Made by a program: the position numbers and the translations under genes. A stretch of 64,000 bases of DNA from Buxus sempervirens (Eukaryota; Streptophyta; Magnoliopsida; Buxales; Buxaceae): NCBI GenBank assembly GCA_947561395.2, contig OX387188.1:7362150-7426149 (forward strand), given 5' to 3'. The notes under the pieces are model-generated. The model was not told the DNA's origin, made no database searches, and saw nothing but the letters and a program-made list of their open reading frames with translations. Within the stretch, counting starts at the first letter, position 1. Each line of letters starts with the position of its first letter. This document shows positions 3,494 through 64,000 of this stretch, piece by piece.

Positions 3494-3503
3494 AAACTTT
3501 TTT

Positions 3504-17867: not shown

Positions 17868-20800
17868 ATGGTTGGTAGAGGGCGACGTGCGCGAGTTGAT
17901 GTTCATGATGAGAGAGTTGAGGCTGGAGAGCAGCAGTATGATGCTCCACCACCACCAGGAGGTGACATTTGGGCCATGGTGGGCACATTGGTAGATCTCT
18001 TGCCGAAGAGAGGGAGGAGAGAATGAGCCAGAATGGGAATGGCAACGGAGGTAATGGGCACAAAGATGCACCTAGACACGCCAGTGAGATTCAAATGGCG
18101 CGGGACTTGGAGCAGTTCCGTAAGATGGATCCACCTATTTTCAGTGGACGACCAAACCCAATGGAGGCAAAGAGGTAGCTTATGCGGGTCGAGTGGATTT
18201 TTGATGCCATGGACTGCCCAAAGGATAGGAGAGTCAAATTGGCAGCTTTTTTGTTTGAGGGGGAGGCAGCTCACTGGTGGAGAGCTGTAAAGAGGCAGGA
18301 CCCCCATGCCACTTATATGTCATGGGGTAGATTCACAAAGGTGTTTTATGGGTAGTAATTTTCTGATGAGGTACGGCTACAGAAGGAGATGGAGTTTATG
18401 GACATCACCCAGGGGAACTAGACAGTGGTGCAGTATGAGTCCAGATTTTTTGCCTTGTCCCGATTTGCACACCACATGGTGCAGGATGAGAGGAGGATGA
18501 CTGCGCATTTCGAGAGGGGTCTGAGGCCGGAGATACGGAGTATGTTGACAGTATTCTTATGTACTGAGTTTAAGGATATTGTGTGTCGAGCCACCGGAGC
18601 AGAAAGAGATATCGAGACTCGAGCCAATATGAGTAGAGCTAGACAGCCGGTGAGGCCGGTAAAGCAGAGAGGCTTCCTTAGTGGGGGCAAGAGACCTAGG
18701 GAGTGGTACAGAGGAGAGTAATCTGGCAAACAGATGTACAAATCAGCTCAGAGGGGTTGTGCCAGTTGTGGTAGGAACCATGTCCCGGGTCCATGTTTTG
18801 CAGCTCTAGCTACTTGTTATAGATGTGGTTAGGCAGGCCACCAGATACATGAGTGTCATTTTCCACCCACTTATCAATCTTTGGCTATGAGACGACCAGA
18901 TGCACTTGCACCTGTAGCTACTCAGAGACCCCCATTCCAACAGCCAGCCCAGAGAGCACCCATGGGACAAAGATCCCAGGGTAGAGGAGTAGCACAGAGG
19001 GGAGCGCAGAGGCAGGCAGTACCTGCTCCACAGTTGCAGCAGACGAGAGTGTATGCAGTAGAGGCACACGAGGAGGAGCACGAGCCCAAGCCAGTGACTG
19101 AGATTGAGGCTGATCCGGAGGCACCTGAGCTGATTGGAGGTATTCTATTTATCTGTGGTAAATTAGCTTGTTGTTTGTTTGATTCTGGTGCCTCGCGTTC
19201 TTTCATTTCGTCTGTTTATGCACGACGGATTAGATTGTAACCAGTTGATATGGATGTTATTTTATTTGTACACACACCATTGGAGGAGTCGACTAGAGTT
19301 AAGTCAATATATAGAGACTTTATGATTAGACTGGGGAGATTAGAGCTGCCAGGAGATTTGATGTGATTTTGGGGATAGACTGGTTGTTTAGACATCATGT
19401 CACTTTGGACTACTACAATGGGATTGTGACAATTAGTGGGCCAGATCAGACCATTCATTGTTTCAGATGTGAAGGGTTGAGATCTTGCATTGGTTTGGTA
19501 GCGTCTATTGTGTCAGAGGAGCCGAGGGATGACTCACTTGTCATCTCTGATGTGCCAATAGTCTGTGATTATGAAGACGTCTTCCCAGATGATCTACTAG
19601 GATTACCACCTGCTCGGGGTGTCGAGTTCAGGATTCAACTATTCAGCTCCTGTTTCAAAGCCACCCTATAGGCTTTCAAAACCAGAATAGGAGGAGTTGA
19701 AGAAGCAGATAAATGAGCTTTTAGAGAAGGGATTTATCAGGCCGAATGTGTCACCATGGGGCGCACCAATTCTTTTTGTATAGAAGAAGGATGGTAGTAT
19801 GCACATGTGTATCGACTATAGGCAACTGAATCACGTTACTGTGAAGAATAAGTATCCGTTGCCTAGAATTGACAAATTTTTTTATCAGTTGGGAGGCGCA
19901 TCTTGGTTTTCCAAGATTGATCTGAGATCGGGTTACCATCAGTTGAGAGTGGTAGAGGAGGATATAGAGAAGACGGCTTTCCGTACTCGTTATGGGCATT
20001 ATGAGTTCTTGGTTATGCCTTTTGGGCTGACCAATGCCCCAGCTGTCTTCATGGATCTCATGAACAAAGTTTTCCATGCCTATTTGGATAGTTTCGTTGT
20101 AGTATTTATCGATGACATTTTGGTCTACTCTAAGACCCGAGAGGAGCATGTTTGGCATTTGAAGGTGGTGTTACAGATTCTGAGGGAGCATAAACTGTTT
20201 GGGAAGTTCAGCAAATGTCAGTTTTGGTTAAGGCAAATATCATTTTTGGGTCATATCATTTCATGATAGGGTATATCAGTGGACCCTGAGAAGGTTAAGG
20301 CAGTAGCAGAATGGCTTAGACCCACTACAGTTCAAAGGTCAGGAGTTTTCTTGGTACGGTAGGGTACTACAGACGTTTCATAGAGGGTTTCTCTCGTATA
20401 GCAGCACCCATGTCTAACCTAACCAAGAAGGCAATGAAATATTAGTGGGATGATAAATGTGAGTAGAGTTTCCAGTAGTTGAAGAAGAGGTTGACTACAG
20501 CCTCGGTTTTGATAGTGTCATCCATGGATGAGGCATTTGCAGTGTATTGTAATGCTTCTAGGATTGGTTTGGGATGTGTGTTAATGCAGCAGGGCAGAGT
20601 TGTTGCGTACGCCTCTAGACTTCTGAGACCCCACGAGAAGAACTACCCTACTAATGATTTGGAGTTAGCAGCCATAGTGTTTGCCCTTAAGCTATGGAGG
20701 CATTACCTATATGGGGTAGAGTTCGAGATCTTCTATGATCATAAGAGCCTGAGATACCTCTTTTCTCAGAGATATCTTAACATGAGGCAGCGTAGGTGGA

Positions 20801-40080: not shown

Positions 40081-40098
40081 TCCCCAGCAGAGTCGCCA
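40081..40098 (-). other. Primer-binding site of element Y
   Basis: In minus sense TGGCGACTCTGCTGGGGA follows the LTR end CCATGTCTCACA after a 2-nt spacer (AC). The leading TGG is the complement of the tRNA CCA end. I cannot name the tRNA with certainty; Ogre elements are reported to use an arginine tRNA and other Tat elements an aspartate tRNA. This site makes B2 a 5' LTR and fixes family-B sense as minus here. Confidence 0.72.
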
Positions 40099-41758
40099 GT
40101 TGTGAGACATGGAAAAATCACCTAGATGATTCCCTCCATCATCACACGGGCTCAACAAAAATAGGAGAGTCGCCACCATCCAATTTTAGGTGTGAATGGG
40201 CACCAAAATCATCAAAAAGAGCAAAAAGGCAAAAACTAGAGTAAAAATAACTCTTCTTTGCAATAATATCCAGAAATGGGTAAGGGGATTAGATTATGAA
40301 TTGGGGAAGGTGTTAGGCACCCCCACTCACCCACACAAGGTGGTTGCCAAGTGTTGTTCATGCTCAAAAATAAGAAATCTTGCTAAAATAATCAAAAACC
40401 TTGAAAAAGTATTAAACAAATGTATGATATTTCCACATGAGGAATCCAATGAATTCCAAATCCTCTTTTATGTCATTATCATTTCTGGGACATCACCATT
40501 TAAATGGAAATCAAGGCAAAACTTGAATACAAACAAGTTGATAAAAATCCGGAAAATTCGGTAAAAGATAGAGCCATTTGTCTTGAAATCATACAAATCA
40601 AATTTAAATTGAATCAAACTAAATCCATTTGAAAGGTTATGATAAATAGAAGACTCATGCAAATTTTCAATCAAATCCGGTTAAAACCCTAGTGTGCGCA
40701 CCCGATTTCGGTCGCACGACAAGGCGCACGCAAAACGATGCGTGCCTCGGGGTTTGTTTGGAGTCGCCACTGCCTAATGGGGTGCAGGCAAACACCTGGG
40801 TGCCTAAGTTCTTCTACTAAGGCTTGGTCTGCGGCTTGAGATTCTAAGTAGGTTCACGGTTGCGGTCTGGGGAAGTCCGTAGACACCCCAGTCCACCCCG
40901 TCAAATGACGGGTCCCATAAGTTTCCCTGGTTTGAGTCAACTCAGTTGGTCTCTCACTCTCCCGATGCCTAATCCAGCATTCAATTTTGGTTAAGTCTGG
41001 CGGGACCGCCAAAGTGGTGTGGGTCCCTTTACTTGATTTTATCTTCTTATTATTGAATGAAGTGAGTCTGATTGGGTGGGCCCTGTTGGAAGGCCCACTG
41101 CATCCCTGGTGGGCTTGGTTAAGCCCACATGTCCCTTGGTGGGCCTCAGTCTAGCCTGAGAGGCCCTTTGGGCATTGGTTCAAGTGAATTGATTTTACTT
41201 TAAAGTTTAAGTTTGTTTATTTAAGTGGATTTCATGCAAAGGTGGGCCGGGTTGCTTCGTGGGCCCTTGAGTGGGCCACACAGTTGGTTTCCAAGTAGTT
41301 TTGATTATCTTTCTTATCTGTGCCAAAAATGGGCCAAGCATTGGGCTTGGGGCCCTTTACCTGGGCTTGGGCTTGAAAGCCCAAGACTTTCTGAGATAGG
41401 GTTTGGAAACCCTACTCTTGTTTGGTTTACTGGGCTTAGTGGGCCCGACAAGCCCTGCCCATGGTCTCGGCCAAACCATGCCTAAGTCTAGATCAACATG
41501 CTTCAAAATTGGGTTTGGGTGGGCCTCCAATGGTGCGGCCCACTCAAATGGATTGATTTTATCTTTATTTAACAAAAGGAGTTTGTCGGGCTTGGTGGGC
41601 CCTGTTGGAAGGCCCACCGGGAATCAATTTGGACCAGGTGTCCAAGGCCCATCTTGGGTTTCCGGGTGACCCGGAAACCCTTCTGGTTCGACTAGTTTGA
41701 TCAAATGAACCAAAAAAACAGCACAAGATCACAAAACAGCAAAAATAACAATCTGGCT

Positions 41759-41865
41759 GTGTAGCCGGCCTGAGATGCCGGTTACACATAAGTCTTGGTG
41801 TATCCGGCATCTTTTGCCGGCTACAAGTGGGCCTCTGTTGATCCGGCCTGAGTTGCCGGATCAAC
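41759..41865 (-). repeat. 39-bp-period palindrome array in transcribed part of A4
   Basis: Three 29-bp palindromes start at 41759, 41798 and 41837, again 39 bp apart. Unit 3 is perfect: GTTGATCCGGC-7 nt-GCCGGATCAAC. Units 1 and 2 have GTGTA/TACAC-type outer arms. This is the counterpart of 2364-2470 in A1. Confidence 0.88.
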
Positions 41866-43210
41866 CTACAAAAGCCAATTTTTCGGATTTTTGCCTTGGG
41901 GTTGGATTCTTAGGCCTCTTGGGGTGTTCTAGGGATTGTGTGGGCTCCTTTGTGAGCCCACAGTGGTTCGGAGAAGAGCCACCTTGCTTCTTCTTTGAGG
42001 TTTTGAAAATCAACAAGAAGGGGGAAGGTTAGGGATTACCTTCTCCTCTTTCTTAGCCAATTCAATGAATAAACAGGGACTCAAACATCACTATTTTGGT
42101 TCCTTTTTATTGAAAACCAATCATTAACATACATTGAAGAAATCAAGCAACATAGGGCTTCAATAAGCATGCTTTAAGTCAAAACCAAACTTGATAATAA
42201 GACACCAATTAAGAGTTGAAAAACAGGTTTTATATGCATGCAAACTACACTAAACAATAACATATATAAAGCACCTAGATATGCTTCTAACGTGTGAAAG
42301 TATAACCATACTTGTGTGATATGTTCAAAACCAAAAGAGAATGATTTCTTATGGTCGAAAACAGAAGCTTGGACTTAAAAAAACATGATGAAACATAAGG
42401 AAAACGGTAAAAAACTATTCGCATAATCTCAAGATGATGGCATGCATGTTTTAAAGGATAGATGATCTCATTCACACCAAAAATAATGATGAAACCCTAT
42501 ACAAACAAGAAAAGAAAAGAGAACTCAACATGCATCCTATGCAATCCATAACATGATCACATCCATGTAACATATTCATTTAGTCTAAAAATGTCTAAAG
42601 AAAGGATGAAGAAGGGGGATTACATAGAGGGATACATTGGATTAAATATGAGGAACATGCATCCTCTTAATAGCAGCTCCAATAAGACCAAAACAGTAGC
42701 TTGAGATGGCCCAAACTGTGAGGGGCCATCTCTCATTCTCCCATAGAACCAAACGTGGAGTCTCTCATACCCTTAGAGATCTCCACCTTACCAAAAAAGA
42801 GAAGAAAACATGCACAAATGGACATTGAGACCAGATTTATGCTTGGGAAGAAAGGAAGGCTAGGAAGTCATTAGAAAATTCCCATAAAAATATATGTGCA
42901 ATACATTGTGATAAGGAACCTCACCTGGGGGTTCTTGAAGCCTTGAGTGGTGTGGAGACACTCCCTTGAAGCCTAAAAAGCTGCTGGAGCTCCTCCTTTG
43001 GCCACCAACAATAGCCTCTTCTCCTTCTTCAAGTTCTTGAGTGAGGGGAAGAAGGGAATAGGGAGGGGTAAAATGGTCAAGCAAGGAGGTTGTTAGGTTT
43101 GGGAAGCAAAGAGGGGCAAAGGAGGAGGTTCTTGGCCCAGGGGATGTGGGGGAGGAAGAGTGGAAACCAGCAAAAAAGGAGCCAACCCCGGAAATGGGGC
43201 TGCTGTTGCC

Positions 43211-43218
43211 TTTTTATA
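43211..43218 (-). promoter_or_regulatory. TATA box of LTR A4
   Basis: Minus-strand TATAAAAA followed by GGCAACAGCAGCCCC, about 12 bp downstream of the last palindrome and about 840 bp into the LTR. Confidence 0.65.
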
Positions 43219-43229
43219 GAAAACTTAAT

Positions 43230-43475
43230 GTATCCGGCATTTAATGCCGGATACACTACACTTCCTTTGTATCCGGCATATTATGCCGGATACACTGCAC
43301 TTCCTTTGTATCCGGCATAATATGCCGAATACAAAACATAATAATTTCGAAAATTAAATGCTGCCGCGAATTTGTCGGCGAATCGGCGCGAATCTCGCCG
43401 AGCAAATCTTTGTATCCGGCATTTGAGTCCGGATATGAAGAGGAGCAAGTGTATCCGGCATATTTGGCCGGATAC
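43230..43475 (-). repeat. Promoter-proximal type I palindrome array of A4 (25 bp / 39 bp)
   Basis: Five units start at 43230, 43269, 43308, 43412 and 43451. This is the same 39-39-104-39 spacing as in A1. Units 1 and 2 are perfect palindromes: GTATCCGGCAT-TTA-ATGCCGGATAC and the same with ATT in the centre. The 14-bp linkers (ACTACACTTCCTTT and similar) are conserved. Confidence 0.93.
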
Positions 43476-45663
43476 AAATCGAAAAATTGCGGATTTGCCC
43501 CTCAACTTGACCGATTCGACCGATTTGACACTTTTGGATATCTACGGATTGCCCCCTGCGAATTTTGGTTTAGTCCCTGAGATATTTGATGATTTTTGGA
43601 TATTTGAGATTTAGTCCCTGAGATATTTCGCTGCATTCATCGCCACGTGTGCAGTTCTTGCGCCAGGTGTGCAGTTTCCGATTTTGCTGCTCAGAAACTT
43701 CGACAGCTCATATCTCCTTCATCCGAACTCCGATTTGAGCAAATTCAATTGCGTTAGACTCGTATCGGAGCCCTCTATCCAATGACATAGTGCTAAGCAC
43801 TTGGCATGGGGTTCAAGGAAAAGTCAAATTTCGGCTCTCCCTTAAGTTTGACCGCCTGCAGAACCTTCATCCAGACTCCGATTCTAGCAAACTCAGTTGT
43901 GTTGGAACTGTGTCGAGATTCTCTATCCATTGAGATAAATCAAGGTGGCAAATTATCACTTGATCAAAAGGTCAAATTTCGACCCCCCAGGTTTTGACTT
44001 TTCTGCTAGGGTTTTCATTTTCAGCACTTCCAAGGGTGCAAAAATAAGGTGCTTACACCTAGGAGTTATGCTCCCTTGAAATCTGTTGTTGGAAATTGTT
44101 AAAAGTAACAAGTGGGCAACTTTGGAAATTTATTTGAAAAAATTGGCTCCATATAAATCCGTGAAATTTGGAATGAATGAAGTATGTAGGGCCATATTTC
44201 AGATGAAACTAGTCTCATACAAAAATTCATCCGAATGTGCTTTGGGTGACCTCCCGAACAGGCCCCGAAGATCACAAATTAACCCATAAATGATCTGTTG
44301 AGCAGTTCTGAGTAAATCTGTTACTCACGACACAAATGGAATCAAAACATTATAACACCAACTGGATTTGAAATTAGACTTCCGAAGGAAAACACAGAAA
44401 CAAAAATCACTCAAATCGGACTTAAAACGAACACATGGTGCTCATTCGAAGTGACAGGTTCAGCAATCAGACCTGAACTGACCTATCAACTTCGACAGAA
44501 TGGTGTCAAAAATCCCCTCAATAAAAATGGATGAAATTTTACAGACATAAACTAAACAGCCTCACCTTTCCCATGGCTTTCAAATCACTCCAAAATTCAT
44601 CCGGATGATGAAGTTATGAGTATCCGAAGTTAGGGTACAGCTGCTGTCCAGTTTAGACCTTTTTAAATAAAATCAATCCAAAACGGTGATCAAGTGTGTG
44701 TGATCCATGCAATATAAACCAAAATTACTTAAAAAGTGTTGAAAAACCTCCAGGATGGAATAGAGCACAAGGTTGGCTCACCATCCTCTCCGATTGGAGA
44801 GAATATGCCAAAAACCTTAAAATTGAGCAAAATGCCCAAAACCGAGAGGTTAGACCGTGAGGTCTTCAATACTTGCTTGAAATCATTTTGAAAATCATTG
44901 AGAAATGTCCCAAAACTGTTTGGGGCTATTTATTTCAGATTTATCACAATGAATGCAATAGATCCGAAATACAAGCCGATTCCAACAAAAACGGGTGCTA
45001 TGTGTGTATGTGTAAAAATCCATTCTTCAACAACATATAGCATTCATATCAATCAACAATCAAATGGGGTTCTAAAAACCTAGGGTTCCATTCCATTCTC
45101 ATTTCCCTTAGTTCTCTCTCCCCGTTTAACTGTTCTTCGAGATAGTCTTGGGGTACTTTGAGTATGAAACGGTTTTCATAGAATCAAAAAGGCCAATCAA
45201 AAGGATTCTAAAAAAAACCTAGGGTTTTGTTCCATTCTCGTTTCCCTTAGTTCTCTCTCCCCGTTACGGTTCTTCGAGATAGTCTTGGGGTACTTTGAGT
45301 ATAAAACGGTTTTCATAGAATCAAAAGGCTTTTCAAAAGGGTTCTAACACTAAGGATCAATCCTCAGTCTCGTTTCCCCTAGATCCCTCTTCACGTTTTA
45401 CAGCTAGAGGGAGTCTCAAGCTACTTTGAGTAGAGGAAGGGGTTGCATACACAAAGATTAGGCCATTATTCTACAGAAAGGTAGAAGAAAAGAGCTAACC
45501 CTAGAATTTAAGAACATAAAAGAAATGGGGTTTTAGGCTTACCTGGGGTTGCTAGAAGCAATGGGGCAGCGGTTTCCTTCTTCACTCGGATCTCTTCAAT
45601 CTCCAACTTCTGGCAAAAATTCTTGGCAAAAGTTATTGGCCATATGCTTGAGGAGAGGCCTCC

Positions 45664-45671
45664 TATTTATA
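45664..45671 (-). promoter_or_regulatory. TATA box of LTR B2
   Basis: Minus-strand TATAAATA in GCCTATAAATAGGAGGCC, about 165 bp downstream of the palindrome array. B3 and B4 have the same box. Confidence 0.65.
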
Positions 45672-45837
45672 GGCAAAGGCTAGGGTTAGGATTTGCATGA
45701 CGCTAGACACAAATTGATGTCTAGAGTCCACCAACCTAAACCCTAAGGCTATTTCTGAGATTTCCACTCCTTAAATAAAGGATATGATGATCAAAAGTGA
45801 AAACTCTCGGAAAACCCTAATTTTGAGGAAAAACCTC

Positions 45838-45979
45838 GTATCCGACAACTCAGATCGGATACAAGAGCACATATATGTATCCGACATATGTCGTCGGATA
45901 CAATAATACCTGCTTGTATCCGACGATTTGTGTCGGATACAAAAAAGTCTTCTTGTATCCAATAACTTGTGTCAGCTAC
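45838..45979 (-). repeat. Type I palindrome array in B2 (25 bp / 39 bp)
   Basis: Four 25-bp palindromes start at 45838, 45877, 45916 and 45955, each exactly 39 bp apart. The arms are GTATCCGAC...GTCGGATAC with variants; unit 4 is degraded (GTATCCAAT/GTCAGCTAC). This is the same unit, length and period as in the A-family LTRs, although the rest of the LTR is different. Confidence 0.9.
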
Positions 45980-46093
45980 AAGGGAAAATGCTTAAATCTG
46001 AAATTTTGCACTGGCTACAAGAAAACAAACTATTTTTTGATGTTTTGGCCAATTTATTCATTATTTTCTCAGCGCAATTTTGGGGTGTCTACA

Positions 46094-46547
46094 GGCCCAA
46101 AGAGTAATTTCTGAAATTTCAGGCTTTCAGAGGTCCTATGAATAGGTTCTAGAATCACGCAAGCTTCTAGAGGCTTATGAAAGTGTCTAAAATTCAGAGG
46201 CTTTTAGACGACCCAAAAAGGTTATGTCTAAAATTCAGAGACTTTTATACGGCCCAAAGAGATTGAAGTTTGAAATTCAGAGGCTTTCAAACGGCCCCAA
46301 AAGGTTATGTCTAAAATTCAGAGGCTTTTAGACGGCCCAAAGAGATTGATGTTTGAAATTCAAAAGCTTTCAAACGGCCCAAAAAGGTTGTGTCTAAAAT
46401 TCAGAGGCTTTTAGACGGCCCAAACAAAAGGTTTCTAGAATTACTCAGGCTTCTAGAGGCCTATGAATTGGTTGGTATGAAAAAGACCATCCAAAGAGTT
46501 GTTGGAATATTTTAGGGCTTCCAACATGTCTCACAAGATATGAATTG
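46094..46547 (+). repeat. Covarying hairpin array of X, left part
   Basis: About eleven hairpins: TCTGAAA/TTTCAGA (46110), TCTAGAA/TTCTAGA (46148), GTCTAAAA/TTTTAGAC (46184 and three later units, one with a single mismatch), GTTTGAAA/TTTCAAAC (two units), another TCTAGAA/TTCTAGA, a bulged TTGG...CCAA unit, and GTTGGAA/TTCCAAC (46501). Loops are 8-11 nt and nearly always end in GGC or AGC (TTCAGAGGC, TTTCAGGC, TCACGCAAGC). Linkers carry GGCCCA or CCTATGA. The array continues at 52442 after solo LTR Z0. Confidence 0.9.
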
Positions 46548-47999
46548 TGTAAAATCCCAGATTTTAGTAATTTGATTAATTGGTTAATAATATGAAGGAG
46601 ATGAGATTTTCGTTCAACCCGAAGGAGTTCAAGATGAACTGGAGATGATAGGAGAGCCTATATAAGGTGAGCACCTAATTATTGACCTAATATAATTTTA
46701 ATTTAGTAATTATTGTTGCTATGGTGTATGTTAGTAAGAATAAATTGAGAAATAAATAAAGAGGATAAAAGGGGTTGGTGGAAACCAATGATAGTGGGTT
46801 GACCCAAAGGTTAAGTTAGTTTAAGAATTAGATGGGTTGATTGTGTTGGTTTAGTGAAAAGGGCAATTAAGTAAAAGCCATTAAATATTAAACTAAACCT
46901 AGTAGTGCATGGAGTGCTTTACGTAGAGTTTATAAACTTAGAATAGAAACAGCCGTGTGTTTCTATTATTTCCTATTCTTCTTCTTAGTTGCCTTGTGAC
47001 TAAAACTAAACCCTAAACAACTGTTGGAGCCGTCTTAGAGAAGGAGGAGTATTTTCGTGTTTAGAAAACTCAGGTAAGAGTCAAAGAGATATAAGTTTCT
47101 GTTCTGGAGATTTGAGTCTGTTTAAGATCTTAAAAGTGTGATTTTTGAATCCAAACGTGATCGAGGTTGTTGGGATCGTTTGGCAAACTTAGGAGTGATA
47201 TTTCGTCGCTCTTAGAGAAGATTTAAGTTCCTAAAACCAGGTAAGTACTGTAACACCCCGGAACCAGGTCCACCCGTATCGGGTTTATATTGGCTCCTGA
47301 GCGCTAGCTTAGGGCTCAAAGTGGTGAAAACTAACTTAAAAACTAATTAGACACAAAAATAACATCCTAAAATTTTTCAAAAAAACGGCTATATAACGCC
47401 TGTACATACGCGAATGGGCTAAGCCCTCAATCACTGGTAATCACCTGATAATCACAAAGTAAACAAATACATCCATTCCAGAAAAAAAACTAAACCATCA
47501 CACATGCACAGGTCTAAAATAAAATTCACTAAGGTTCTCACTCTCTCTCTATCTCTTCATTTACAATATATACAATTTCCAAAAATGATAACTACAAAAG
47601 TGCAATCCAGTCCTAGCCAGGATAGTAGTAATCCTCAGGACGATAATCGTCATCAAGATCACTATTTCTTCCTACCTCAGTTCGTGCTTGCCCTGCAGAT
47701 CTGTCTGAAAACAAAACCGGTAAAAACAAAAACATGCGTGAGACAGTTGTCTCAGTAAGTAGCATCATGCATGCTATAAATAGTTTTATGCAATTTCAAA
47801 TATAAATAACATGCTCGAATATAACACGATCAAATCTCATCAATTTCATGTTGAAAATAATTCAAACACAAAGAAACAGTTCATTTTTCAACTAAACCAA
47901 TATTTCACTATTCAGGATCATACTAATAAACAAATAAAAAGCAGATCAATCCAATTTACGAGATAATCACCCTCTACCCTCTAACCAAGATTCAAGGTC

Positions 48000-48620
48000 T
48001 AGCAGAGTGCTTCTCTACGCTTCATGACAAATCAAATAAGCGGAGTGCCCTCTACGCGACCTAACGAATCCAGGTCAACGGAGTGCCTCCCTACGCTGCT
48101 CGATGAAGCAAGGCTAAGCGGAGTGCCCCTCAATGCTGCCTATTCATAGCACATACCAAGTGGAATTCCCTTCCACTTCCCAAATCTTACGAAGAAACGA
48201 TTCAGTACATAACCCAACTTTCCAGATAAATTCATACAAATCAATCACTGTTAAACAAATTTCACAGTTTTGAGTTAATGGGGTGAATTTAGGTTCACGA
48301 TCCACAATGCCTCAAAGCACGTGGTGAACTTAGTTCACGATCCCCAGAACTCATATTTGTGGTAGATGGTTCACGATCCCCTGTTAGGGTGAACAACCAT
48401 TCACGATCCCCAACCAAGGTGAACAACAATCCACGATCCACAAATATCCAGGTTTGTGGTGGATGCAAGTTCACGATCCCCAACTGAGGTGAACAGCAAT
48501 CCCAGTCCACAGATACCCATGTTTGTGGTAGATGCAGGTTCACGATCCCCCACCAAGGTGAACACTAGTTCATGATCCCCAGCCGAGGTGAACGGCAATC
48601 CCAGTCCACAGAACATCTAA
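48000..48620. repeat. Short imperfect repeats with inverted arms in Z1
   Basis: Two neighbouring sets. At 48000-48180, GGAGTGCC...CTACGC-type units recur four times, ending in the hairpin AAGTGGAA-TTCCC-TTCCACTT (48160-48180). At 48285-48615, units around GGTGAAC and TTCACGATCCCC recur about eight times, including GTGAAC-TTA-GTTCAC. Apparent reading frames across it are by-products of the repeat. Confidence 0.75.
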
Positions 48621-50189
48621 CCATAGGCCATCGGCCCTTTTCAAACTAACAGGAAGCCTCAGCTTTAATTTAAAATTTCATAAATCAAATCATGTCACCA
48701 AACCAAATTAAGACTCATGAACTTTCACTTAGACGAATATTGCACATAAACGAATGCATAAAATAAAACACAATCGTTTTACCATAATTATTTTACAATT
48801 ACCGTTTACTCTGCAGAACCAGTTTAAATTAGTTACTTTAATGCTAAACCTGATCTGATCTATGAGGAATTGGTAATCGTGCTATACATCATTGGAAAGT
48901 TCTACGAGTCTAGTTTCCAACGCAACAGTTTGTAATTCGGAGTTTCCTACAGGAAATTATGGCTGTTTTACTACAGGTGGTTCAAAACAGCCGCGAAACC
49001 TAATGGACGGAAACCATCAATGTTTGTTGATTTTTCTTGCAACACTCCGAGTTCCAATTAGTTCTAAAATGCTTCCATTCAACTACAATTACCCTAAACT
49101 AAATTTTAAACTACTAATGTAAATTTTTACGCGAAAATTCCTAGCCTTCGCAAGCCACCGAAATCTTCACGATTTTAAGTCAGCCTAACAGTAGGGCTGA
49201 TATGTGTTTATTTCAAATTGTTTCTATACTACAGGTCAACTGTCTACAAAAGGCTGTCTCCGGACATTAATACATTGGCTTATCAACAAGAAACGAGAAA
49301 TTCATCCATATCCCATTCCAAGGTCTAATAGAATCAATAAAAGACCTTAAAGAACTCAATGCCAAATATCCCCTATCAGTATCATTCCCATCACAACCAA
49401 ATATCCCATAGAAAAATCTGAACCTAGATTACAACTCACTTGGTAAATCAAAACCTAAAATTAAATGTTTCTAACATAACCCAAAATCAGAACCTAAATC
49501 GAATACGAATATTTTCAGCTACTGATTTCTCAACCAAAATCTAAAGTTTACTTCAACTCATTTAGAGATAGATTTTTCAATTGTAAATCTATGAGTAAAT
49601 CGGTAAAATCAACAGTTGTAACTTAGGTATAAAATAAAATATAAATCTACACTGTAAAGAAATCGAAATCTGCTGGTGGTGTTACTTTAGAGTTGCTGCC
49701 AAATTTACCTTCGGTGTAAAATCTGATTAACTACTATCACCAACTTAACTAGTTTAAGTATTTACGTCAATCCTTATCACTCACCAATTCTTAACAGAAT
49801 GATACCCAACTGATTGATCACTCCCCAGTTAACACATGCATCTCAATTTTCCCATGTATACCTAAATTATTCCATCCCTAGAACATACCAAACCTAACCT
49901 CATAAGAAATTTTAGAAAGAAGAAAAGAAAACAGATGCATGATTGCTTTGGTTTTGGGCGTTTCTTGCAAACTGGAATCACTCAGAAGGGATCGAACAAA
50001 CCATACCCCATCATACTCAAAGAATATAAACAAGATTATAAGAAATCAAACAGTAATCAATCGGAATAGTAATTGATCAAAACAAACGGAAATCAATCAA
50101 ATTACAAGATAAGCAAAAGAAATCAACCAGAAATCGATCGAACGAAAAACAAATGCTACTTACAAAATTTAGCAATCCACACACCCAAA

Positions 50190-50430
50190 ACAAAACCCCT
50201 TCTCTTCTTCCCTTTTTCTTCTTCTTTCTTCTTTCTTCTTCTCTTCTTTTCTTCCCCACATTTTTCTTCTCCTCTTCTCTTCCTCTCTTTTCTCCTCCTT
50301 CTTCTTCCTTTCTTTTTCTTCTCTTTTCTCTTCTCCTTCTCTTCTGCGGCCAAACCCCCAACAAACGCCCCCTTTCTTCTCTTCTTTTCCTTCTTCCACA
50401 ATTCCTTCCTTGTTTCATTTTTTCTTCTTC
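50190..50430. repeat. Polypyrimidine (TTC/TCTT-rich) tract in Z1
   Basis: About 240 bases are almost pure C and T on the plus strand, thus purine-rich (GAA/GGA) in Z1 sense. It is low complexity and produces several overlapping spurious open frames on both strands. Confidence 0.85.
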
Positions 50431-52441
50431 TTCTAACCCTAACGCCCAAATGAGATAAAAGCTTACGGGTTATTATTTTTTTTTTTTTCATTTCATTAAA
50501 CCTTGAACCATTGGACCGGTTCAATTAACTGAACCAAACCCCATTTACCCACTAACCTAACCAACCCACTCACCAACTAGGTTAATTGCATTTTTTTTCT
50601 CTATATATTCTTATTTAATAATTTTAATCTTAATTAAAGTTTTCTCCAAATTCCGGGGTTTTACAAAGTAGTCCCTTGACGCTTGCATAAAATCTAAATT
50701 CTTGTTTAGACGATATTCATGGTTATTCGATGTTTGATGCGTTAATTTCGTTATTTATGATGTTTTATGTGTTGAGAATTGTTTTAGCATCTGTATAATG
50801 TATTTTAGAATGATTTAGAATGGTTTTGATGCATTGAATATTGAGTTGTGGGATTTTTATAGAATTTCACAAAGTTACGGATTTTTCACATATCGGACCA
50901 CCTTAGCAGTCGCTCGAGCGATCTATGTATACAGTTGAAAACCCGAGAGCAATTTTACCCAAATTGAACCACCACTAGAACAGCCGCTCGAGCGACCTAC
51001 CCTGAATTAACCTGTTTTGTAAGGCCGATCAAGCGCCCTTGGCCGCTCAAGCTACCAGTCTGTCAAATTTTGGAAAACTTGTCTTTTCAACCTAGTTTTT
51101 ACTAAGGAAGTAGTTTTATTCAATTTTAGCCTATGTACCATCAAGATTGGGGTATTTGGGAAGTGTTTCCATTGGCGGATGTTTTAAATTAAATTTTATA
51201 AATATTTTGGGTAGATGTTTCTAAAGAAGCACTTTTACTTGATTCAATTGTTTCAAAAAATTTTACTTTTAACCAAGGTTGGTTTTATGAGTTTATACAC
51301 CTGTATTTGAGTGATATGAAGGTATTGTGTGCATCGATGGAGTCGATACACATTCAGGACATATTGGCCCGTTGAAACCTGGAGTTTTGAACATATGACT
51401 TGGTACATTCTGTTTTGGATTTTGGGTCACTGGTGTGACAAGGCTGGTGCCTGATTTATTGTATCCCGCATGGGCGGATTTAGTTAGAGATATGGTTCTA
51501 TATTTTGGTAGGTGTTATTGAGAATTATGTCCATTACCCTGGTTGGTTTTCTCACTGTTGAGTGGGCTTAGCAGTTATATGGATCCATAGAATAGCTAGT
51601 AAGTGAAATGTGTATTAGAGGGGTTTGAATTCTGTGTCTAAGTCATTCCATCATCTCGAGGATGGTACCGCTCCTAGATTGGTCGGTCGCTACGTTACCC
51701 ACTCCTGGATTGGTTGGGCCGTACATGCTAACTCATGGTTGGGTTCTTCCGTTGGTGTTGAATAGCCAGACTGCAGGGCGGCTGGTCCATCGTAAATCGT
51801 TAGGTAGCATATTGGCACATGTCTACTCTCTTTTTCTGGTATACTATTTCATGAGTCCCATGAGGTAGATAAATTGTATTTCATTGTTGTCTTGATTCTT
51901 ATTGTGATTATTCAGGTTATACGATGCACATTTTATTGTAGTCAACTATTTGCGTGACTGCTTACTGAGATGTTGTTTCTCACATTATTGTTTTATCATT
52001 TTTGTTTTTAGATATTCCTGGAGAGGACATTGCCGGGGTAGAGACACCAAGGGAATACTGTGATTACCAGAAAGAAGACTATTTCATTCCTGTGTAGGAC
52101 ATGGAGAGACATTTGGATTTATTTTCTTAGGGATTATTTTCAGTATTTTAATTAAGGAGTTTGATGTTATTTTCAAGATGAATGGTATCTTTAATCCACT
52201 CTTTGGTGAATGTTATTTATGTTATTTAGTTGAACCCTTTCCAGACTTCATAGATGAAATATAAAAGGATGATTTTGGTAGTTTAATTCCGCGCTTTCTG
52301 AAAGATGTTTTTATTTCCGCACTCTAACATAATAAATGAATTTGTTTAAGTCTGGAATAATTGTTTTTGGTCATTTTCCTTAACGAACCAAATTTGGGTT
52401 TATGTGTGTAAATAGACCTGGATCCGGGGCGTTACAAATTG

Positions 52442-52995
52442 GGTGGTACGAAAAAGACCATCTAAAAAGGTGTTGGAATATTTTAGGGCTTCCAACATGT
52501 CCCATAAGATATGAATTGGTTGGCACGAAAAAAGCCCATCCAAAAGGGTGTTGGAATATTTTAGGGCTTCCAACGTGTCCCACAAGATATGAAATTGGCT
52601 GGCACGAAAAAGGCCATCCAAAAGGGTGTTGGAATATTTTAGGGCTTCCAACGTGTCCCACGAGATATGAAATTGGTTGGCATGAAAAAGGCCATCCAAA
52701 AGTTGTTGGAATATTTTAGGGCTTCCAATATGTCCCACAAGATATGAATCGGAATCAAGGCTTCCAAAGCCTCCTGAAATTACGCAGGCTTTCAGGAGTT
52801 TATGAAGGGTTCTAGAATCACGCAAGCTTCTAGGGGCTTATGAGGATAAAGATCTGAAATTTCAGGCTTTCAGAGGTCCTATGATTTTCTAAATTAAGGC
52901 TTTAGAAGGTCTATGAGGTTAAAAATTTGAAATTCAAAGGCTTTTAAAGGCCCATGGAAATTTTGAAGAAAATCTGAAATTCAAAGGCTTTCAGA
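52442..52995 (+). repeat. Covarying hairpin array of X, right part
   Basis: Four units of about 77 bp (starts near 52473, 52548, 52627, 52704) each hold GTTGGAA-loop-TTCCAAC (the last with a changed closing base) and a bulged TTGGC...CCATCCAA hairpin. They are followed by GGAA/TTCC, CTCCTGAAA/TTTCAGGAG (9 bp, 52771-52798), TCTAGAA/TTCTAGG, TCTGAAA/TTTCAGA, TTCTAAA/TTTAGAA, TTTGAAA/TTTTAAA and TCTGAAA/TTTCAGA (52973-52995). Two of these pair through G-U wobbles. Loops again end in GGC or AGC. Confidence 0.9.
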
Positions 52996-53268
52996 GGCCC
53001 ATGGGTTACGAGCTGCTGGTCCTGAAACCATCTTTGGTCAAGCCAGGTGATTGCCGAAACATTGGCTAAGTAGTACTCTTGGGTGAACCCCCAAATTAAC
53101 TTCGTTAGCAGCCGCCCCCTGCTTCTTTTCCTTATACTCTGATCACGGTTATAAGGTCAGGAGAGACCAGTCCTGTAGACCTAGTTGATTTTCTTTTGTT
53201 TTATTTCCTTTTGAGTTACTTGAGGATTTGTTATAATCAACGGTTGCATTTTAGGCGACCGATATCTG

Positions 53269-53274
53269 AATAAA
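53269..53274 (+). terminator. Polyadenylation signal of X copy 1
   Basis: AATAAA in the context TCTGAATAAAAGTATT. X copy 2 has AATAAAGG at the homologous place. In an LTR this marks the R region, so the hairpin array upstream would lie in the transcribed part, provided the TATA box lies upstream of the array as in copy 2. Confidence 0.55.
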
Positions 53275-55488
53275 AGTATTTCCTTATCGTTTACTGCTAC
53301 TTTCAAACATGAACAAGAACCCAAACGAAGACCAAATCCCTTGTCTTCATTCTATCGTCTGATCAATTTTATTATAGGTGACTTTCAGTACGGCTAGACC
53401 GACGCCGGTTTAGATCCAGAACAAGTGTGAGACATGGGAAAATTCACTGGAAATGATTCCCCCTCCATTAGCACACGGGCTCAACGTAAAATGGGAGAGT
53501 CGCCACCATTCAGATTCTTGGGGTGTAAATGGACACCAAAAGATTCAAAAATAATTAAAAAGAGCTACAAGGCAAATTCTAGAATAAAAATAACTCTACT
53601 TGAAAATCAAATCCAGAGATGGGTAAGGGGATTAGATTATGAACAGGGGAAGGTGTTAGGCACCCCCATTCACCCACACAAGGTGGTTGCCAAGTGTTTT
53701 TCATGCTAAAAAAATAGGAAAGCTTGCTAAAAATCATCAAAACCCTTGAAAAAGGACAAATGTATGATATCTTCACATGAATATCCAAATGGATTCCAAA
53801 TCCTCTTTTATGTCAATATCATTTCTTGAATATCACCAAAAGATGGAAATCAAAGCAAAAGTTGCACAAAACCAAGTTGAGTTAAATCCGGAAAATTCGG
53901 TAAAAGCAAGAACCATTTGTCTTGAAATCATTCAAATCCAATTTAAATTGAATCAAACCAAATTCATTTGAAAGATTATGATAGATAGAAGACTCAAGCA
54001 AAATTTCAATTGAATCCGGTTAAAATCCTAGGAGTTATGCCTCCTTTAAAATTACTGCTAGAGATAATTAAAAGTGGCAAGTAGGCAAGTTTGGAAAATC
54101 ACCTAACAAAATCGGCTCCATATAAATTTATGAAATTTGGTGTGATTGAAGTCTGTATGGCCATATTTCAAATGAAACTAGCCTCATACAAAAATTCATT
54201 CGGATGTGCCTTGGGTGGTCTCCCGAACAGGCCCTGAAGATCACAGATTTACCCAGAAAAGTGCTGTTGAGTAGTTCTGAGTAAATCTGTTACCAACAAC
54301 ACAAATGGAGTCAAAAAATTATGAAACCAATTGGATTTGAAACTAGACTCCCAAAGTAAAACACAAAAACAAGAATCACTCGAATTGGACTTAAAACAAA
54401 CACATGGCGCTTAGTCGAAGTGACAGGTTCCGTATTCAGACCTGAACTGACCTATCAACTTCGACAGAGAGGTGTCAAAAATCCGCTTGATAGAAATTAA
54501 TGAAATTTGGTAGGCATACACTAGATAGCCTCACCTTTCCCATGGCTCTAGAATCACTCCAAAATTCATCCGGACGATGAAGTTACAAGTGTCCGAAGTT
54601 GGAGTACGGTTGCTGTCAAGTTAAGCCTTTTTTGAATAAAAATAACTCAAAACAGTGATGAGAGGTGTGTGATCCGTGCAAAATGAATCAAAATCTTTTG
54701 AAAATCATTTCAAAATATCCCAGAATTGCTTGGGGCTATTTATTTCAGATTTATCACAATAAACGCAATAAATCCGAAATATGAGCCTATCCCGCCAAAA
54801 TCACGTGCTATGTATGTGTAGGTGTAAGAATCATTCTAACAACATAGCAAAGATAGTATGCATTCATATCAATCAAAATAGGATTCTAAAACAACCTAGG
54901 GTTCCGTTCGATATCGTTTCCCTTAGTTCTCTCTCCCCGTTAAACACGGTTCTTCAAGATAATCTTGGGGTACTTTGAACATAGAATGGTTTTCATAGAA
55001 TCACAAGACTTATAGCATGCATTTAGATAAATAAAAAAGAAGGTTCTAGAACAACCTAGGGTTCCGTTCCATTATCGTTTCCCTTAGTTCTCTCTCCCTG
55101 TTAAACACGGTTCTTCAAGATAATCTTGGGGTACTTTGAATATGAAACGGTCTTCACAGATTCAAAAGGCTTATTCAAAAGAGGTTCTAATACTAGGATC
55201 AATCCCCAGTCTCGTTTCTCCTAGATCCCGCCTTCACGTTTTACGACTAGGGGGAGTCTTGAGACACTTTGAGCCAGGGAAGGGTTTTCATACACACATC
55301 AAGGCCTTATTCTACAGAAAGGTAGAAGAAGAGATCTAGATCTAGAATGTAAAAAACAGAAAATTAAAGATAGGTTTGAGGCTTACCGGGTTCTGGAAGC
55401 AGTTCCGCAGCAGTTTCCCTCTTCACTCGGAGCTCTTCTTGGCAAAAGTTCTTGACAAGAGTTGTTGGTTGCTTAAGGAGGAGCCTCC

Positions 55489-55496
55489 TATTTATA
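55489..55496 (-). promoter_or_regulatory. TATA box of LTR B3
   Basis: Minus-strand TATAAATA in the context GCCTATAAATAGGAGGC, about 170 bp downstream of the palindrome array, as in B2. Confidence 0.65.
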
Positions 55497-55662
55497 GGCA
55501 AAGGTTAGGGTTAGGGTTGGTGAGATGGTAGACACAGCATAAGGTCCATAGCCCACCAACCTTAACCCTAAGGCTATTTCCGAGATTTCCACTCATTTAA
55601 TGAAGGATATGATGGTAAAAGGTGAAAACTCCCGGAAAACCCTAATTTTGAGCAAAACTAAT

Positions 55663-55804
55663 GTATCCAACATATCAGGTCGGATACACTAGAGCCTATG
55701 TGTATCCGGCATATGTTGCCGGATACATTGAGGGCTACTTGTATCCGGCTTTTTCCATCGGATACGAACAGATACGCTTGTATCCGACCTGAGTTGTCGG
55801 ATAC
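55663..55804 (-). repeat. Type I palindrome array in B3 (25 bp / 39 bp)
   Basis: Four 25-bp palindromes start at 55663, 55702, 55741 and 55780, all exactly 39 bp apart. Unit 2 is GTATCCGGCAT-ATG-TTGCCGGATAC, perfect except at the centre. Units 1, 3 and 4 have GTCGGATAC or ATCGGATAC arms. Layout is identical to B2. Confidence 0.9.
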
Positions 55805-56060
55805 AAGGAAAAAACTCATTTTCTCAAATTTTGTGCTGGTTTCCAAGGAGATAGTGATTTTTACTGATTATTGATCATTTTACTGTGAAATTTGGGGTGT
55901 CTACAACAGGTGCCCAGGGTCAGGATCCGACCTGAATCATACTGGGACACCAGCACGAAGACACATCATCCCTACGGCCACGTGTCGAGCCCGGACCAAT
56001 TTGAGACCAACAATACCTTAATTGTCAAAAATTTCCTTCTGGCAGATGTAAACTGGGTCT

Positions 56061-60104: not shown

Positions 60105-60450
60105 AAAGCTTGTTTATTCAATTTTTATGCATTTTTGACCTGTTTTAAGCTCTAATTATCTGTTTTTATTATTTTCTAATTTTGTAGTGCAATTTGGGGT
60201 GTCTACAGACACGTGTCTATGTTGATGATGTGTCTCTACGCGGGCGTGCCAGTATCGTTTGATACAATGATTTTCGAGTCGATTCCTGACCCCGGGCACC
60301 TGTTCCGAATCTGAACCGGGGTCGGTTCAGTCGTACTGCAAGTCACCTGTGATAAAATCGGTCAGGCGATGGTATGAAGACTAGGGGTTCGGTCTTCGTT
60401 TTGGGTTCTTGTAAGTGTTTGAAAGCGAAAGCAACTAACGGCACACAAAT

Positions 60451-60458
60451 CCTTTATT
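60451..60458 (-). terminator. Polyadenylation signal of X copy 2
   Basis: Minus-strand AATAAAGG after GGCCGATTTAAT, homologous in position to AATAAA at 53269 in copy 1. Confidence 0.5.
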
Positions 60459-60949
60459 ATTAAATCGGCCGAATAGCCGAAAACGACAACAGATAATCCT
60501 CAAAAGGGAAACAAAAGTAAAAAAGAAAACTGACAGGGCTCGCAGGACCGGCCTGTCCTGGTCTTATAGCCGTAATCGGGTATAGGCGCAGGAGGAAGGG
60601 GGCGGCTGCTAGCAAAGCCAATTCAGGGGGTTCACCTTGGATTGCTGCTTACCCAAAAATACACGAGTCACCTGGCTTGAACAGAGCGAGTCTCGGGACC
60701 GGCTGCTCGGGATTCTGTAAGTACAGAACTGCGAGTCAGGGGCGGCCTCAACTTACTCTCCGGTGGCAGGATTCTGGTGTTAGTCGGAGTAAAGAGGGGT
60801 CGAAGATGTCACTGCGACTGGAAGCAGTGAGAGAAGTCCTAGTTTATCCGTCTGTATTAGAGGGGATAAAGGATCACGGATGATCAAAATAATATAATAA
60901 CCGGTTGCGGTTGTGTGGATTGTGTCCTCGAGTTCTTCAAAGTTTATGC

Positions 60950-61288: not shown

Positions 61289-61496
61289 ATTACGCCGTCA
61301 TCAGCCGGTGTGATGAGTAAGTATTTTGGGTTTTTCAAAAACTGTCTGTTGCTTGATGTGAAAAGATTGCGCCACATCCCCACGATTTTAATGACAAGAC
61401 TTTTTCGGACTTCATCTTGCTTATAACTTACTGTAGCCGAAATTTTTCTTTACTTTTCTTTCTCGGCTATTTGTCTTTTCTTCTTCTTTGTCTTCA

Positions 61497-64000
61497 ATGG
61501 CGGGCAATCTCATACGTTATACGTCTACAGTCAAAGTTTTTGATGGAGCAATCTCTGTAGGTCCTTTTCTTTCTGCCAGCAATATTCCTTTGGAGGCCCC
61601 GACTGAAAAAATGAGGGGTCCTCTACTCTTCATTGATGAACAGAATCTCAATCTACCTTCTCGGAAAAATTTTCGAAGTTGGCCGACCGCCTATCCTGAA
61701 TGGGTAAACTGGGTTAACCGCATGAAGGAGCGCTTTGCCGTTATTTGGTGTAAGACTGGTATTTATGACATGATTAACTTTTCCTGTCATTGTATTCCTT
61801 TGAATCGTGACCTTCTCTGCGCCATGGGTTTATTCTGGAATGTTTGGACTAATACCTTCAATTTCCCTTGTGGACCAATGATTCCCACTGTCATGGATGT
61901 CTGCTTTATTACTGGTTTCTTTGCAACCGGTCATGAGATTCGGGTCGGTATGACCGATCTTAAAGATTACCAGCATTTACCTCCGCTGGCTGTAGGTGAC
62001 AAGGGAAAAGAGGTAGAAAAGAAAAGAAAGCAACCCCCAACGAAGAAGAACAGGGCTTCCAAGAAGGTGAGATCTTCTCGGCAAAAAGGGATTGTTTTGT
62101 CCAAGAACGAACCTCTACCGTTAGAGAGCGAATCTCCACCTACTTCAATTCATTCCTCTTATCGGTCCTATATCAAGGACTGTGCCAAATTCCGGCCTCC
62201 AGCTTATGAAGACGAGGTGGAACACTTCTACTTCCTCCTTTATTTTTTCTGCAACTTTGTATTCTGTTCTAAGGCTCAAGCAGTAACCAAAGAGTATTAC
62301 TCATTGGTTAAGTTAATTCTGGGTGAGTATGAAGTTGCCCTTGCTCCTTACTTTTTATCGGTTTTGTACCGTTCACTTCAGGAGTTTGTTCATGGCACCC
62401 TTCAAAATCCTGGGGGGCCATTGTGGTTTCTTCAATTTTGGGCTTACCACTACTTTCCATCTCAGTTTTATGCTCGGAGGCCGATTCCTTCTAATATGCC
62501 CTCTGAGTTTGGTGGCTATGCCTGTTTGACCGCTACTCCTGTTGTTCTCTCTTTTCCTGATTGCTTCCGTTTCTTTTTGAGTCTTCGTCATTTCCCCACT
62601 CCTCCTTTTGAAGTCTCCGCAAATTCTCCCGGTTTCCTTTCAATGGTTGATGACATAACTAACGAGCAGCATCTTATCTGGGCCAGTTTTCTGATGGCTC
62701 AAAATTTAAATTATGCTATAAAGTCGATTAACAAGAAACCGGGATTTGAGGTATACTTGCCAAATTGTGTCGGCCGGCAATTTCAATGTGAACAGAGGAT
62801 CCCCTTATTTGATGTGGATGGTTTGTTCACCATTAATGCCAAATCTGTTGATCGGCCGTCTATCACTGTAGCCGAAGCTGCCCAAATGGAAGATGCTTAT
62901 AGAGTTGCTGCCGTTGAATTTCAACTTCCCTTTCTTCCTCGTCATCATAAATATCGTTGTGATTTCAAGGTTTGGTGGGATTCTTTGTGGACTTCAATCT
63001 GCCGTTATTCGGCCGATTATTACCTCGAAAGATTGGGTCTGATGGAATCTTTGGCTGCGTCGATCTATGAAGGTATCTTCTTATCTTCCTTGTTCTTGAT
63101 CTACTTGATACTAATTCAGCTACTCTGTCACTAGGTGAAGTACCGCCTCTAGCCTTGGAAGCTTATATTTCCCCTTCAAGGGAATTGGCCGAGGATGAGG
63201 CTTATATTTCCCCTACAAGGGAATTGGCCGAGGATGAGGCCTTATCGGTAGAATGCCCTGTCTCGATTGTTCCTTTTGAAGATCTTGAGGAAGATCCTGA
63301 TGATGTCCCATTACGACGACGTTCTCGGAAGGTACTGAATCTTCATTGCTCATTCTTTTTTATTTTTCCTTCTGACACCTCATTCTTCTAGGCTTCGAGT
63401 TCCTCGGGTCCAACTGTTTTTTCTTCCAATGTCATGGAATCTTCTTCGGATCCAGTTGTTGATCCCACGTCTGTTTTTGATCCGGTCAATTTCGTTGGTT
63501 CTGCCGAAACATTGGATTCTCCTGGTAGTGTCATTGCAGCAGCTCCTTTAGCACTTCCTGAAGGTCAGGAGCATTTATCCATTCGAGAGGATTCTTCAGA
63601 AAGAAGTCCGTCTCCCGAATTACCTCCTGGATATGAGCAGAGTGCTGTCCCTTCGGTAGTTGAGATTGCAACGTCTACCACTTCCATTGGGCCTTCCGGC
63701 CCTTCTGCCTTGGCCGATATTCCTCCAGATTCTTCTGTTATAGCAGCGGAAGGTGATACTGATCGGCCGAAGCAAAAGCTTGTTGAATTGGGGAGTTCCA
63801 GTTCATCGTTTGTTCCTTCTCCTGCTGCGGGATTACTCTCTGATGATGGCCATGGCCGATTGGACACTATATTGAATGATGTCTGTTCCAATCTCTCATC
63901 GGATGGTTCATCTGAGCCCTCATCTCTAACAAGTATCCGTTCGGAGATTATCCGCCTCCTCTCTCCAGGCATAGTTGGTATTTCCGAAGAGACTCTTACC
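61497..64000 (+). CDS. Plant mobile domain (PMD) gene, spliced, 3' end outside window
   Basis: ATG at 61497 (MAGNLIRYTSTVKVF); an upstream in-frame TTG is not a credible eukaryotic start. Proposed exons: 61497-63072, 63135-63331 and 63392 to beyond 64000. Introns of 62 and 60 bp (GTATCT...CACTAG and GTACTG...TTCTAG) keep the frame open, and without them the first exon stops at 63134. Exon 1 shows the aminotransferase-like plant mobile domain: FIDEQNLNLPSRKNFRSWP, W-x2-W-x2-R-x4-FAVIW, IYDMINFSCHCIPLNRDLL, FWN-x8-FPCGPMIPTVMDV. A basic insert near residues 176-202 (KKRKQPPTKKNR) looks like a nuclear localisation signal. Exon 2 is acidic with a 13-residue tandem repeat. Exon 3 is S/P-rich and probably disordered. 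PMD proteins occur as host silencing factors (MAIL1/MAIN) and as genes carried by transposons; antisense frames are known in Tat retrotransposons. Its position antisense to X, next to the polypurine tract, favours an element-borne gene. It is the only long undamaged frame in the window. Confidence 0.75.

Follow-up and report, generated by a model that had tools for sequence, protein, structure and literature searches.

In a 64,000-nucleotide stretch of the Buxus sempervirens genome (assembly GCA_947561395.2, contig OX387188.1, positions 7,362,150 to 7,426,149 of the forward strand; in its full length referred to here as the window), we analyzed an array of short hairpins that lies in two parts, at 46094..46547 and 52437..53002. 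The pattern of sequence change in these hairpins and in their other genomic copies leads us to favor, with modest confidence, the reading that they are tandem units with a pseudoknot layout, located in the leader of a large family of long terminal repeat (LTR) retrotransposons between the primer-site region and gag, and kept by selection on folded RNA. Each unit would consist of a hairpin of 7 to 8 bp in which the first four loop bases also pair with four bases ending 1 nt before the 5' arm. The letters of the arms appear free to change provided that they match, and the second-helix bases, mostly RRGC and GCYY, are kept. Pairing appears to be upheld where the element replicates and to decay in single copies, with selection on the folded genomic RNA as the most likely reason for its upkeep. 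Structured leaders, a familiar feature of retroviruses, are to our knowledge little described for plant LTR retrotransposons, elements that account for a large part of many plant genomes.

In the left part of the array in the window, ten hairpins have stems measuring 7 to 8 bp, with a mismatch in one of them, and an eleventh hairpin is of a second kind. Nine stems of at least 7 bp are found in 46094-46550, compared with a mean of 2.8 and a maximum of 7 in 200 dinucleotide shuffles, and 11 are found in 52435-53010 (mean 3.4, maximum 8 in 200 shuffles). Hairpins at this place, with at least five kinds of stem, had been proposed in a first-pass annotation made from the letters alone, and all five kinds that it named are present. 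For the statistics, 21 of 23 anchors were kept after removal of two nested false ones, and the broken unit at 52762 was left out of the alignment, giving 20 hairpins from both parts in 16 distinct rows. Paired cells in this alignment amount to 96.9% versus 78.0% when shuffled, and the covariation score is 0.625 versus 0.237, neither value being reached in 500 shuffles; slid arms score 0.07 to 0.19. Six of eight pairs have changed on both sides (reached by 11 of 500 shuffles), and there are 12 further pair types (reached by 40 of 500). Unconstrained drift simulated on a tree of the units produced 76.5% paired cells with a tree from the stems and 72.8% with a tree from loop and tail, compared with 98.0% observed, a share reached in 1 and 0 of 5000 runs, respectively. 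The number of pairs changed on both sides was reached in 2 of 5000 runs on the stem tree and 85 of 5000 on the loop and tail tree. The annotation's proposal that pairing is kept while the letters change is thus borne out, also when measured against the phylogenetic background as it had suggested.

Its description of one near-constant loop did not hold, since TTCAGAGGC is the loop of only 4 of the 21 window hairpins (4 of the 10 in 46094-46547). Loops end in RGC in 20 of the 21 and in GAC in the remaining one. Six 41-nt tandem units at 46184..46424 (minus strand) carry stem classes P, P, Q, P, Q, P, where P is TCTAAAA and Q is TTTGAAA in plus-strand letters and the second P has one mismatch. 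Alternating GTCTAAAA and GTTTGAAA units, which had been taken to require concerted change in both arms, are indeed present but are in part repeated copies of a single 83-nt block, so they are not independent events and a count of sequences is not a count of events. A longer unit of 78 nt at 46462..46547 (minus strand) combines the hairpin GTTGGAA/TTCCAAC with a second hairpin, TTGGNTGGY/RCCATCCAA, and four more copies of it follow at 52437..52749 (minus strand). Over these five copies, 1 of 26 columns varies in the hairpin core and 13 of 50 in the remainder. No Rfam model matched the window between 44000 and 56500 at the gathering score. A model built from the 20 window hairpins (R1) recovered those same 20, as expected by construction, and gave no further match in the window below E = 0.03. 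A pattern scan found no match in viral contigs and 11 single matches in bacterial and archaeal genomes, which we provisionally take as chance. Units are spaced 41-42 nt apart, and phased small RNAs were considered and not used in the argument; nor were TTCnnGAA motifs in the units, which we take to be heat-shock-like, or GGCCCA boxes.

To place the array in an element we turned to its copies across the 676-Mb genome, where a search gave 179 matches among 40 scored places from 1931 first-look candidates, the best place being the window itself; 20 array places were examined with their flanks. These flanks are common among copies and fall into several subfamilies. On the side that corresponds to the left in the window, a minus-strand open reading frame (ORF) is found that reaches 751 aa between stop codons, and of 8 loci scanned, 7 had the Retrotrans_gag domain PF03732 on the sense 3' side (in 7 of 12 ORF pieces). 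On the opposite, sense 5' side, 1.3 to 3.7 kb from the array, a TGGCGACTCTGCTGGGGA-like, primer-site-like motif on the minus strand directly follows the end of an LTR_A-like LTR in 12 of 20 loci, with a partial motif in one of them (L028). The order on the minus strand is therefore LTR, primer-site-like motif, leader, array and gag, and the RNA sense of the array, from its position in other copies, is the minus strand of the window. The array measures 1.0 to 2.1 kb in 12 copies. The 5.3 kb downstream of one gag contain two ORFs of at least 100 aa.

This order changes the setting in which the array had been read. The first-pass annotation placed it in the plus-strand leader of another LTR, here called X, and hence probably in RNA, on the grounds of an AATAAA in that LTR (near 53271), and in the window the array does touch X-LTR sequence at 53009. 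The placement in a leader stands. The X LTR does not: its piece at 53009-53423 occurs in none of the 20 array copies within 9.9 kb of each, and the array occurs in none of the 11 other X-LTR copies examined in the genome. Upstream of those 11 lies a different sequence that they have in common, over at least 260 nt in 10 of them and about 70 nt in L062, and it terminates in GTTA, like window positions 53005-53008. With gag and the primer-site-like motif on the minus strand, the plus-strand RNA is likewise abandoned. We dropped the X LTR leader as refuted for the copies examined and give it next to no credence. The X piece itself had 40 scored matches among 1668 candidates in the genome.

The confusion arises from nesting. 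The left part of the array (46094..46547, minus strand as RNA sense) is cut on its gag side at 46093 by an LTR_A copy (40098..46093, minus strand), which joins the array within a unit, is itself interrupted at about 40693-44057 and is followed on the minus strand by TGGCGACTCTGCTGGGGA. The right part (52437..53002, minus strand) belongs to the same array and is separated from the left by an LTR-type TG...CA insertion (46548..52436, strand not assigned) that is no part of the array and is flanked by a 5-bp target duplication, AATTG, at 46543-46547 and 52437-52441. The ends of this insertion are TGTAAAATCCC and GGGGCGTTACA, and an extra TGTAACACCCC start lies inside it at about 47249. To the right, the array is joined by a breakpoint at about 53000-53008 to the X LTR fragment (53009..53423, plus strand), which is not its host, and beyond that stands a solo LTR_A (53426..55905, minus strand) with a near-perfect target duplication, ACAAG/ACAGG (53421-53425 and 55906-55910). 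A stretch like the left edge of the array in the window is found in 14 of 20 other loci, where further array precedes it and not LTR_A as in the window, and in the copies closest to the right edge the array continues into an AT-rich leader. The window thus holds the middle of an array cut by two mobile elements and one breakpoint.

The genomic copies also allow the arms to be compared on a larger scale, in 31 arrays (20 long loci, 10 short loci and the window). Hairpins were anchored on RGCTT, which fixes the two innermost stem pairs and two second-helix bases and leaves out units without it, including the window unit at 46243. Of 835 anchors, 501 had perfect 7-bp stems, 204 were one pair off, 55 two off and 75 lower, and the 760 with at least 5 of 7 pairs were kept for class counts. 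Perfect stems fall into 15 classes, 12 of them present in at least 5 loci, and by our reading of the class list ten can be joined by single compensated pair steps. Some of these steps are transversions, from A-T to T-A and, where one position has G-C, C-G and T-A side by side, among those three, for which there is no path through a wobble pair. One further class, TTCTAAA, looks like a compensated indel. The ratio of perfect to imperfect arm combinations is 12:20 for those in at least three loci, 0:14 in two and 3:86 in one, and the share of perfect arms in combinations from at least three loci versus one differs with p = 5e-6. Almost every combination private to one locus is mismatched (86 of 89), so that arm matching seems to belong to the replicating lineage and to decay in individual copies. 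In an alignment of 13 copies, with 494 cells of mixed columns left out, private changes affect 152 of 7389 cells in stem and loop versus 134 of 4880 in the spacer (p = 0.014).

Selection is not the only process that would match arms. In the main competing explanation, which we hold to be a real possibility though a distinctly less probable one, one arm templates the other during reverse transcription or DNA copying, and arms match without any function. Such templated mutation has been described for RNA genes (PMC8794818), and the likeness lies in compensated stem changes with a kept loop. It would agree with the scarcity of states that bridge the three common tandem classes (which number 141, 62 and 43 units, versus at most 6 in any other state) and with the lack of wobble preference in stem departures reported below. 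The cases described in that paper are cellular RNA genes; here single copies are unrepaired, which speaks against a general process in chromosomal DNA, intermediates changed in one arm are found in up to 10 loci each, and the units keep a second helix, whose conservation, spacing and own compensated pair templated mutation does not predict. A mechanism that treats all chromosomal copies alike is on that first ground improbable, and copying of arms within hairpins during the element's own replication is possible. The first-pass annotation had offered either selection on pairing or template-switch copying, and the improbability of the chromosome-wide form of the latter does not settle the choice between the two.

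The second helix was found on the minus strand, where the first four loop nucleotides match four others that stop one base short of the 5' arm. In 705 units with at least 6 of 7 arm pairs, 85.6% of second-helix cells are paired at this 1-nt spacing (70.4% Watson-Crick and 15.2% G.U), compared with 62.5, 50.9, 32.4 and 13.9% at spacings of 0, 2, 3 and 4. All four pairs are present in 399 of these units and three of four in 228; in the window, 16 of 21 units have at least three. One pair is compensated: among 112 units with 10-nt loops, AAGC:GCTT occurs 55 times and AGGC:GCCT 46 times, versus 4 for AGGC:GCTT (G.U), 1 for AAGC:GCCT (A.C) and 6 others. Within arm class TCTAGAA alone (10-nt loops), the same forms number 25, 24, 3 and 1, with 3 others. 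Taking both helices together in 46 distinct 10-nt-loop units from loci L020-L039, 96.6% of 506 cells are paired (96.7 and 96.6% for the helices individually), and at most 54.1% when slid; no shuffle of 500 reached the covariation score, and 70 of 500 reached the number of pairs changed on both sides. Over 362 distinct units, the covariation score of the second helix is 0.270 versus 0.216 shuffled (0 of 1000 as high). These statistics show that the pairing of the second helix and its register are real.

In the sense direction each unit reads as the upstream strand of the second helix (Ta), 1 nt (L1), the 7-nt arm, the downstream strand of the second helix (Tb) with no junction, mostly 3 to 7 nt (L3), and the returning arm. 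This order is that of an H-type pseudoknot. An example on the minus strand at 46148..46176 has Ta AAGC, L1 C, arm TCTAGAA, Tb GCTT, L3 GCGTGA and returning arm TTCTAGA, and the unit at 46434..46462 (minus strand) shows the other second-helix form with the same arm (Ta AGGC, L1 C, arm TCTAGAA, Tb GCCT). A tandem unit at 46309..46338 (minus strand) has Ta GGGC, L1 C, arm GTCTAAAA, Tb GCCT, L3 CTGAA and returning arm TTTTAGAC. Judging from the sequence pattern, both helices may form simultaneously. If the plus strand were the RNA, the single-nucleotide connector would need to span the minor groove of a 7-bp stem, which is judged unfeasible. The arms form 7 bp in 400 of the 705 units and 8 bp in 305. 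In 65 of the 262 tandem units treated below, the plus-strand 3' arm has T in place of C at its outermost position, so that the eighth pair becomes G.T; this C/T site falls within a CpG, and the change would also agree with a limit of 7 bp set by pseudoknot geometry.

The nearest described RNA fold that we found is the CPK1 motif, in which 1-2 nt span the major groove of a 6-7 bp stem and the stems stack without a loop, and which, according to PMC11262651, is known singly and in short tandems. Array units with 7-bp arms resemble it in their 1-nt loop over the stem, the lack of nucleotides between stems and the short second stem. The array differs in forming a long row with many stem sequences, in a second stem of only 3-4 bp and in being known from sequence, and the 8-bp stems of the other units would exceed the CPK1 rule unless the outer pair opens. 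PMC11262651 cites papers on phage T2 gene 32.

A further property of the array is the order of its units. For 262 of 276 tandem units of the 41-nt kind, Cramer's V between the two arm classes is 0.974. Other sites are less closely tied to the arm class: V is 0.37 to 0.56 for seven variable positions immediately ahead of the plus-strand 5' arm, 0.09 to 0.36 for nine positions beyond the 3' arm, and 0.04 to 0.16 for three in the loop, these last being mostly rare variants, which lowers V. The three tandem classes alternate: same-class neighbors number 32 of 185, versus 69.1 (standard deviation 5.6) expected when classes are shuffled within arrays, and none of 5000 shuffles was as low. The order of classes varies among arrays (PQPQ, PRPR, RQRQ), and all three occur in 22 of 31 loci. 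Alternation of this kind fits an avoidance of cross-pairing between neighbors.

The blocks also recall tandem repeats of no consequence to the element. In this explanation, which we think unlikely, the units would descend from one hairpin, amplified in blocks and left unconstrained, as leftovers of the kind found in the 3' region of Tat-lineage elements. The 41- and 83-nt blocks and the variable length of the array agree with it, and tandem arrays are described in Ogre elements, which belong to that lineage, where they occupy the 3' untranslated region beyond gag-pol (Macas 2009, cited by PMC7004042). Both are short tandem arrays inside a plant LTR retrotransposon that vary in length among copies and are dispersed with the element. 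The Ogre arrays as described there lie 3' of gag-pol, whereas the array in B. sempervirens lies 5' of gag and its units keep their base pairing. Tree-based unconstrained drift is also disfavored, and twelve perfect stem classes each recur in at least 5 loci. Alternation is another point against leftover repeats, although the amplification of two-unit blocks alone could yield it.

Several observations weigh against selection on the folded RNA. An A.C departure on the plus strand is a wobble on the sense strand, and RNA selection should favor wobbles; the plus-strand G.T and A.C departures of the main stem are about equal, at 35:31 in one locus, 5:6 in two and 7:8 in at least three, and the second pair of the second helix has 9 sense G.U versus 7 A.C, which counts against selection at the RNA level. 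Tandem units move as blocks, so that their counts are not independent events. The 13 aligned copies contain 23 compensated cells beside 45 one-arm changes, and by our reading most of the 23 either reflect class swaps of whole tandem units or are a single event shared by several copies. The second helix is mostly constant, with one pair clearly compensated, and shuffling its partners among the 362 distinct units lowers pairing only from 82.3 to 79.7%. In favor of constraint, identity across subfamilies (50 pairs of 18 loci) is higher in the array (mean 80%) than in gag (73%), but best-local matching in this comparison favors tandem repeats. In folding calculations, the z-score of 46094-46547 is -3.5 on the plus and -3.2 on the minus strand, with no strand difference, and that of the right part is -2.6 on the plus strand. 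With nested folding, local hairpins were more probable on the sense than on the plus strand in all 8 arrays tried (of 31). When the unpaired bases were shuffled, the hairpins outdid those of the real sequence in 4 of 4 arrays on the plus strand and 2 of 4 on the sense strand, a result that is hard to read either way since the nested folding program counts the second helix as a competitor.

Symmetric G.T and A.C departures would suit DNA as well as RNA, and LTR_A itself carries an array of hairpins whose arms are nearly constant. A DNA-level element, with inverted repeats that a dimeric protein binds or that act as cruciforms, is nevertheless improbable to our minds: the arms show a freedom of variation not expected of a protein site, the array is located between the primer-site-like motif and gag and outside the LTR, and the second helix crosses the first in a layout typical of RNA.

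If selection on the folded RNA is the reason for the matched arms, the position of the array between primer site and gag suggests, tentatively, that its role is that of a many-site RNA element recognized by shape, for example an array for Gag binding and packaging or for translation control. The packaging signals of retroviruses lie at the 5' end of the genome and are bound by Gag (PMC10726167). Like the array, they are structured RNA at the 5' end, ahead of gag or around its start. We know of no array of repeated units of comparable size among them. Somewhat more tentatively still, the array may be polyvalent, its tandem pseudoknots recognized by shape plus a few constant bases, with at least three interchangeable stems that alternate so that neighbors cannot cross-pair. 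A literature search in one library, covering titles and the starts of abstracts, found no paired or pseudoknotted array in the leader of a plant retrotransposon.

The window contains other repeats and coding remnants. A second hairpin array, with 39-nt spacing and 14 anchored units, is found at 3503-3611, 43229-43476, 45835-45986 and 55658-55807, the last two in LTR_A-type sequence. It has near-constant arms, GTATCC...GGATAC, and variable loops, the opposite of the pattern in the main array, and the anchor itself requires these arms. Pieces of X-kind LTR at 60297-60709 (minus strand) and 53009-53423 are 71% alike. At 61488-63134, a 548-aa ORF with the plant mobile domain (PMD) PF10536 lies on the strand opposite to a nearby X-type LTR with a G-run ahead of it; no match came from a protein search with the neighboring PMD ORF. 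An imperfect inverted repeat of about 430 nt at 29463-29893 matches its reverse complement at 79% identity, 48370-48610 is occupied by tandem repeats around TTCACGATCC with periods of 30 and 69 nt, and a reverse transcriptase fragment (PF00078) of another element is present at 19799-20266.

As the nesting in the window makes plain, one nested copy can place a leader in the wrong family and on the wrong strand. Read across its copies, the array offers hundreds of natural variants of one small RNA fold within a single genome, in which counting can separate selection, templated mutation and block amplification. Should the units serve in Gag binding or translation, the leaders of this retrotransposon family would provide a natural many-site array whose units are diverse in sequence but alike in shape.
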